A DNA stretch of 64,000 bases from Nitrosotalea devaniterrae (GTDB taxonomy: Archaea > Thermoproteota > Nitrososphaeria > Nitrososphaerales > Nitrosopumilaceae): contig LN890280.1 of assembly GCA_900065925.1 (NCBI GenBank), forward strand, positions 1,232,451 through 1,296,450, given 5' to 3'. Position numbers and translations under genes: made by a program. Of this stretch, positions 14,227 to 15,531 are shown one piece after another (positions within the stretch are counted from its first letter, which is position 1; each line of letters opens with the position of its first letter). The notes under the pieces were generated by a model that worked only from the letters and a program-made list of their open reading frames with translations, was not told the DNA's origin and did no database searches.

Positions 14227-15531
14227 ATGAAGATTCCATATTATACCATAATTGCAATTTTGATCTTTTCTGCATCATCATATCTAAAACCAATCCAGGC
14301 AGAAAATCAAAATAACATACTGATTGTCAACCCTCAAACCTCATCGCCTATAAGAGTTGGAGATATGTTTACAATTAACGCAACTCTGGTAAATAATTCC
14401 ACAAATACCATAACTGTGAAAAATGGTTGTGGAGGGCCATTCTCCATAGCATTTGATGGCCATGCCAAAGTTGAAGTAAAAAAAGTATGTAACTGGATGG
14501 CAATTCAGATAATACTGCATCCCGGTGAAAACATCACGGGATCAAGTCTCGCCTCAAACCTTGCTTACAGAGCAATAGAATCTGGAACTGCAAATGCAAC
14601 CATAACATTCTCGTATGCGATAGACAGCAAGACTTCTAACTTGTCATTTGACAATAACACCGCCAGCATATCAAAATTATTTTCATATGAGATATCAAAC
14701 CAATCAAATGAAACAATCCATGGCACATACTCACCATTAAAGCAATTCAAGTCAGGAATTGCTGCATATGATGTCACATGCAATAAAGGCCTCCAATTGA
14801 TTATCAAATCAAGAGATAACTCCCCTGCATGTGTAAAACCTGACACTGCATCACAACTTGTTCAACGGGGCTGGGCAAAAAGTCCAGAAAATGTTTTTGT
14901 GACACTTGTAGAAGGCCAAAGAGAAAATCCATTACTAGTACAAAAAATCTTCTCAGATAATATTCAAGGTTTGAGTTTTCGAGAATTCCCTCTTGTGACA
15001 AATGTTGGCAATCCCATAACTCTGCATATTGGTGATAGTGTAAGTAATGGCTGTACTATTGAGCTAACACTTGTTAAGATTAGTCATGGAACTGCCACAT
15101 TTCTTAAAAAAGAAAATCTTACCAGACTATGCCCGCTTTGCCTTTCTGAAAATACTATAATTGGCACGCCAAACGGTCCTGGCAATATAAAAAATCTAAA
15201 GACTGGAATGACAATATTTACACAAGACAGCTCTGGTAATCTGCAAACTGGAACGATATTAAAGACAGGAAGAACTCTTGCCCCTCTAGGTCATATGATG
15301 GTCCACGTAGTTTTGTCTGATAAAAGAGAGCTGTATGTATCACCAAACCATCCAACTGCAGATGGTAGATTCTTCGGAGAGTTATTGGTAGGAGATACTC
15401 TTGATGGTTCTAAAATAAAAAATGTGGAACATGTACCATACAATGGAACTTATACGTATGACATATTGCCTTCTGGTCAAACTGGATTTTACTGGGCAAA
15501 TGGAATTTTAGTTGAAAGTACACTCAAATGA
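14227..15531 (+). CDS. Secreted protein with C-terminal Hint (hedgehog/intein) domain
   Basis: The 434-residue protein has a signal peptide (1-25), a beta domain (about 30-165), then SPLKQFKSGIAAYDVTCNKG...ACVKP...RGW, a module typical of thaumarchaeal surface proteins (about 175-220). The last 130 residues or so form a Hint domain: C305 in CLSENTIIGTPNG (block A), NHPTADG with H375, GELLVGDTLDGSKI, and an ending ILPSGQTGFYWANGILVEST. There is no C-terminal extein and no terminal Asn-Cys/Ser pair, so hedgehog-like self-cleavage at C305 is expected in place of splicing. Confidence 0.85.
   Translation: MKIPYYTIIAILIFSASSYLKPIQAENQNNILIVNPQTSSPIRVGDMFTINATLVNNSTNTITVKNGCGGPFSIAFDGHAKVEVKKVCNWMAIQIILHPGENITGSSLASNLAYRAIESGTANATITFSYAIDSKTSNLSFDNNTASISKLFSYEISNQSNETIHGTYSPLKQFKSGIAAYDVTCNKGLQLIIKSRDNSPACVKPDTASQLVQRGWAKSPENVFVTLVEGQRENPLLVQKIFSDNIQGLSFREFPLVTNVGNPITLHIGDSVSNGCTIELTLVKISHGTATFLKKENLTRLCPLCLSENTIIGTPNGPGNIKNLKTGMTIFTQDSSGNLQTGTILKTGRTLAPLGHMMVHVVLSDKRELYVSPNHPTADGRFFGELLVGDTLDGSKIKNVEHVPYNGTYTYDILPSGQTGFYWANGILVESTLK

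Follow-up and report, generated by a model that had tools for sequence, protein, structure and literature searches.

An exported Ca. Nitrosotalea devanaterra protein with a C-terminal Hint domain and its three-cysteine family in archaea and bacteria

Gene and domain layout

The window analysed here is a 64,000-nucleotide stretch of the genome of the soil archaeon Ca. Nitrosotalea devanaterra (contig LN890280.1, positions 1,232,451 to 1,296,450). One of its open reading frames, running with exact boundaries from ATG to stop in the ORF listing and the translation, encodes a protein of 434 aa whose features are collected in Table 1. The first-pass annotation of this gene had named a block-A motif around C305, H375 and a block F/G-like end, and all three are in place: the motif before and at Cys1 reads C302-P-L-C305, the C-terminal end runs TYDILP...FYWANGILVESTLK, and the chain stops two residues past T432. 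The same annotation took the product to be exported and to end in a Hint domain with no C-extein, a prediction supported by the signal-peptide-like N-terminus, the profile matches, the AlphaFold fold and the position of the chain end. An intein interrupting an enzyme was rejected as a reading in view of the missing C-extein. Modelling of the N-terminal domain gave a poor result (pLDDT 60), and that model was discarded.

Table 1. Features of the Hint-domain gene and its product, in window coordinates
Feature	Residues	Position	Strand	Basis
Whole gene, 434 aa and stop	1-434	14227..15531	+	ORF listing, translation
Signal-peptide-like N-terminus, hydrophobic stretch, ...KPIQA/EN	1-25	14227..14301	+	Read from sequence
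Variable N-terminal domain	~26-165	14302..14721	+	Common to two own-genome paralogues without Hint
WING-49 domain	170-218	14734..14880	+	NCBIfam NF058652, E 1.4e-24
Small beta domain	223-301	14893..15129	+	Adjoins Hint in Thaumarchaeota, DPANN and CPR relatives too
Upstream cysteine (SNGC)	C276	15052..15054	+	Upstream Cys in 60/60 members having -3 Cys
-3 cysteine of CPxC motif	C302	15130..15132	+	-3 Cys in 60/67 members
Hint domain	305-434	15139..15528	+	Profile matches, AlphaFold model, Foldseek
Cys1, block A nucleophile	C305	15139..15141	+	67/67
Block B histidine (S-P-N-H)	H375	15349..15351	+	66/66
Block F aspartate (TYDILP)	D412	15460..15462	+	66/66
Pair aligned with intein terminal Asn and +1 nucleophile	S431-T432	15517..15522	+	gp41-1 intein alignment

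The scan of the organism's own genome, a single contig of 1,805,304 bases, returned only this one Hint domain of the kind. WING-49 recurred in about 14 other ORFs, none of them with a Hint domain, and two of these, the neighbouring paralogues L002 and L003 at contig positions ~525,700-528,300, also carry the N-terminal domain of the window protein. Where the window protein has its Hint domain, L002 ends in PEFP, a membrane segment and a basic tail, an arrangement that resembles a PEF-CTERM signal, although no such family was matched. Many of the genome's WING-49 proteins lie in a cluster at contig positions ~525,700-574,700, with WING-49 joined to varying N- and C-terminal parts.

Assignment of the C-terminal domain

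Evidence from the single sequence was weak to moderate: Pfam Hint_2 (PF13403) matched the whole protein at E 7.6e-4 (20.3 bits, under the curated cut-off of 28.4) and the Hint domain alone at E 3.2e-5, and a single-sequence search of the PDB found the CatC intein at E 1.5e-5. With the family profile the evidence became solid, as this profile matched the consensus intein CatC among PDB sequences at E 8.5e-8 and, among solved structures, inteins, a BIL domain and, weakly, Hedgehog (E 0.41). Hint_2 was matched at E <= 0.1 by 39 of 39 family members, and its curated cut-off was exceeded by some relatives, several Chloroflexota members and the loci L039, L046, L054 and L058 among them. The first-pass annotation had pointed to the Hint horseshoe as the fold to look for in a structural prediction; an AlphaFold2 model of residues 220-434, built on 40 sequences, contains it at a pLDDT of 90, and the best 50 Foldseek matches listed for this model were inteins, BIL domains or Hedgehog, with no exception. 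The C-terminal domain is almost certainly a Hint domain, and its nearest Pfam family is Hint_2. To call it hedgehog-type, as had been done, was too specific, given that the Pfam Hint profile (PF01079) found no match in the window protein.

Family members and their architecture

A scan of representative genomes with peptide patterns located 41 loci in Thaumarchaeota, Micrarchaeota, Woesearchaeota, several CPR phyla, Chloroflexota, Gemmatimonadota, Dadabacteria and Bacteroidota, and further Chloroflexota members were found by profile. As judged from these sequences, the family crosses the domains of life and is not confined to archaea. Every member has its Hint domain at the C-terminus, followed by 0 to ~23 residues. 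The parts upstream vary while the Hint domain stays: they include WING-49 proteins, carboxypeptidase-regulatory-like domains (L058), TIG (L036) and, in L027 (3125-4399), WING-49 combined with a cupredoxin-like domain (Cupredoxin_1, E 5.8e-5). The stretch immediately preceding the Hint domain is in most cases one of two domains unrelated to each other: the beta domain seen in the window protein, or another marked by the motif FxCDPDxYPVAR. Varying upstream domains on a constant Hint domain are as expected for a general processing tail.

Sequence inspection and hydropathy showed a hydrophobic N-terminus in most members and, in CPR and DPANN members, an N-terminal membrane-type segment, often with a Pro/Thr linker; a lipobox was seen on inspection in many Chloroflexota members. 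Many relatives thus look to be anchored N-terminally ahead of any cleavage. One CPR protein (Woesebacteria, L056:2390-4447) has several membrane segments, looks conjugation-channel-like by eye and bears a Hint tail that lacks the -3 cysteine.

Catalytic positions and the C-terminal end

Residues were counted over 67 distinct Hint sequences, some positions being scored in 66 or 64 of them. Cys1, the block-B histidine and the block-F aspartate are unchanged in every sequence scored (67, 66 and 66, respectively) across phyla. The place of the intein His-Asn is taken by x-Ser (Ser in 65/66), and at the intein +1 position stands Thr in 65 of 66 sequences and Ser in the other, a hydroxyl residue in all 66; the register of this end was taken from the gp41-1 intein alignment. 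Immediately before Cys1 the family mostly has Ile (57/64), and the window protein has Leu. In inteins, an Ile/Leu-type residue at this position tends to slow N-terminal cleavage. Two further candidates for invariance were discarded, namely H356, present in only 55/67, and YWANGIL, whose apparent constancy stems in part from the peptide patterns used in the scan, the Chloroflexota members found by profile having variants such as YWADGV, YFAGGI and YFSDGI.

Since the residues of the thioester step are present and those of Asn cyclisation are absent, the Hint domain is predicted to form a thioester and to cleave at its N-terminal side without splicing. From what is known of the Hint superfamily, we infer that the window domain is probably able to cleave. 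The chemistry put forward in the first-pass annotation, self-cleavage with ester or thioester formation, is plausible, and the residues for a thioester and for N-terminal cleavage are conserved across domains of life; an archaeal anchor made by transfer to a lipid or sugar is not supported in the form given. The unfavourable -1 residue would also suit an inert fold that never cleaves and serves for binding or as a stable end cap, but the constancy of Cys1, the block-B His and the block-F Asp in 66-67 sequences across phyla would be unexpected if catalysis had been lost, and we consider such a fold unlikely. The hydroxyl residue at +1 in all 66 sequences would fit yet another outcome, in which the T432 hydroxyl takes over the upstream part from Cys1, giving a branched ester that would persist because Ser stands in place of Asn; conservation at +1 may, however, be structural, and this internal acyl transfer seems very improbable.

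Cysteine pattern

The CPxC motif, with a second Cys at -3, is found in 60/67 members and lies beside either of the two unrelated upstream domains. Each of these 60 has another Cys upstream. In 28 members it precedes Cys1 by 23-40 residues (mostly -29 to -36) and belongs to the beta domain, and in 32 it falls at ~-108 to -120, within the other upstream domain. In a single protein, L123, both the -3 and the upstream cysteine are gone (FYVDPD, YPIC) in comparison with its relative L117 (FYCDPD, CPIC), the only case of such joint loss. The co-occurrence of the two cysteines and their joint loss in L123 point to a disulfide between them; this is the simplest reading and would leave Cys1 free. For the window protein, we favour a C276-C302 bond as the likelier arrangement. 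The pattern of CPxC together with an upstream Cys is what is new in this family. At ~14 intein junctions, sampled by eye with a crude pattern and from non-independent insertion sites, no -3 Cys was seen, a background count not used as a statistic.

A cysteine at -3 relative to Cys1 also characterises redox-trapped inteins, of which the Pyrococcus abyssi MoaA intein is a natural example (PMC10663303, PMC3922620) and the Ssp DnaE intein of structure 3nzm, with CPGC and thus the CPxC spacing to Cys1, an engineered one. Those proteins are intracellular or engineered splicers, whereas the window domain is, by prediction, exported, lacks the splicing residues and has a third Cys upstream. The identical spacing, and the retention of the -3 Cys in 60/67 members next to two unrelated domains, would be consistent with a redox-gated release in which an extracellular C302-C305 disulfide blocks Cys1 until its reduction by thiols, sulfide or anoxia permits cleavage. 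Against this gate, the -3 Cys occurs with the upstream Cys and vanished together with it, which argues for a pair formed by those two, and the small members (~260 aa) contain exactly these three cysteines and no others. We regard redox gating as doubtful; switching between bonds of the C276-C302 and C302-C305 types is possible.

Comparison with known Hint systems

C-terminal Hint-like domains on secreted bacterial proteins are a kind known before (PMC2362128). Such proteins of Myxococcus, Serratia and others were reported by Dassa and Pietrokovski, and Burglin (2008) gives them as secreted with two conserved upstream cysteines (PMC2362128); their likeness to the window protein in export, C-terminal Hint domain and upstream cysteines is by description only. 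No description of the present Hint family was found in the open-access library searched, and within it a family that spans domains of life and has the three-cysteine pattern appears to be undescribed. Hint_2 proteins, although they provide the closest profile, differ in that the fixed CPxC with upstream Cys and the ...STL end belong to the present family. Unlike inteins, this family has neither the C-terminal His-Asn, replaced by x-Ser, nor a C-extein.

The B-type BIL domains are described in reviews as having the intein motifs minus the C-terminal one and as cleaving at the N-terminal side (PMC7765530), and the present family, matched against these descriptions, shows the same residue pattern. 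BIL domains, however, are described from hypervariable regions of bacterial proteins, whereas the present family forms a fixed C-terminal tail and occurs in archaea too. The Hedgehog Hog domain is likewise the C-terminal Hint part of an exported precursor with exchangeable N-terminal parts, and structure 1at0 was among the Foldseek matches; in contrast to it, the window chain ends with the Hint domain and has no sterol- or adduct-recognition region, and the sequence match is weak. Pretoxin Hint (PT-HINT) proteins differ in that no toxin or other domain follows the window Hint domain. A toxin or defence reading was rejected on the same ground, a C-terminal toxin being absent and PADLOC giving no match.

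Proposed mechanism

The overall explanation toward which we lean slightly is that of an exported protein with an autocatalytic C-terminal Hint domain that would cleave only on its own N-terminal side, with C276 and C302 as a clamp. C305 would attack the L304-C305 peptide bond in an N-S acyl shift, aided by H375 and D412, and water or a small nucleophile would then resolve the thioester so formed, so that the upstream part and the Hint domain come apart. As there is neither a His-Asn end nor a C-extein, resolution in this way, and not by a specific acceptor, is rather probable. In Ca. Nitrosotalea devanaterra the N-terminal and WING-49 domains would then be freed, as the window protein has no other visible anchor. 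The putative C302-C276 disulfide would hold the upstream domain clamped at the cleavage site, with Cys1 left free. Two observations sit uneasily with this explanation: simple hydrolysis leaves the T432 hydroxyl at +1 unexplained, and the residue before Cys1, mostly Ile and here Leu, tends to be unfavourable for cleavage.

Hydrolytic release is a simpler reading than transfer to a nucleophile, although the observations fit both. If Cys1 is active, the chemistry would be at hand for handing the thioester on to one particular lipid, sugar or amine and so fixing the upstream domain to a surface, and L002, which shares the N-terminal and WING-49 domains, has PEFP, a membrane segment and a basic tail in place of the Hint domain; that end fits either anchoring or release. 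Attachment of this kind is nevertheless improbable in our estimate, as the Hint domain is not followed by an adduct-recognition region, no conserved neighbouring partner or acceptor gene was found among the Thaumarchaeal loci compared (several of them short), and many relatives are, by their sequences, membrane- or lipid-anchored at the N-terminus. For these reasons, and because release is simpler, the new way of anchoring archaeal proteins proposed in the first-pass annotation is not specifically supported; the family, moreover, is not confined to archaea. The most far-reaching reading, a portable extracellular Hint tail of archaea and bacteria, switched by three cysteines and able to release or covalently attach any upstream surface domain as a redox-responsive prokaryotic counterpart of Hedgehog processing, we consider a long shot.

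If the domain is active, it would let archaea and bacteria process proteins on the outside of the cell with no need for a protease or sortase, and its bearers include ammonia oxidisers, DPANN and CPR, organisms with poorly understood surfaces. In that case the conserved cysteines, those of CPxC and the one upstream, would be a rare native link between Hint chemistry and a disulfide outside the cell, and the small three-cysteine members open cleavage, adduct and redox control to direct testing.

Taxonomic spread

The Hint tail was present in 11/101 genomes of the organism's own family (its own genome counted), where a twelfth, weak match proved to be an intein in an RtcB-type protein (L022, from the same-genus genome G091), and in 5/398 genomes of its wider phylum. 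Among 287 genomes of the phylum of one CPR member, strong matches were confined to the starting genome, and ~20/201 genomes of a Chloroflexota sample had strong matches. This patchy spread is no more than suggestive of horizontal transfer; transfer between domains of life was set aside as a claim, as the inner branches of the tree are weakly supported and repeated label changes do not prove it.

A mobile-element reading was also rejected, as the phage and plasmid collections gave no match to the Hint tail and the sole IMG/VR matches were to distant Hint proteins that retain His-Asn. These viral proteins, on the contigs L064, L065 and L066, are ~270 aa long and carry both a Gly-rich linker and a Hint-like domain, the latter with the end GHLYWANGILSHN.
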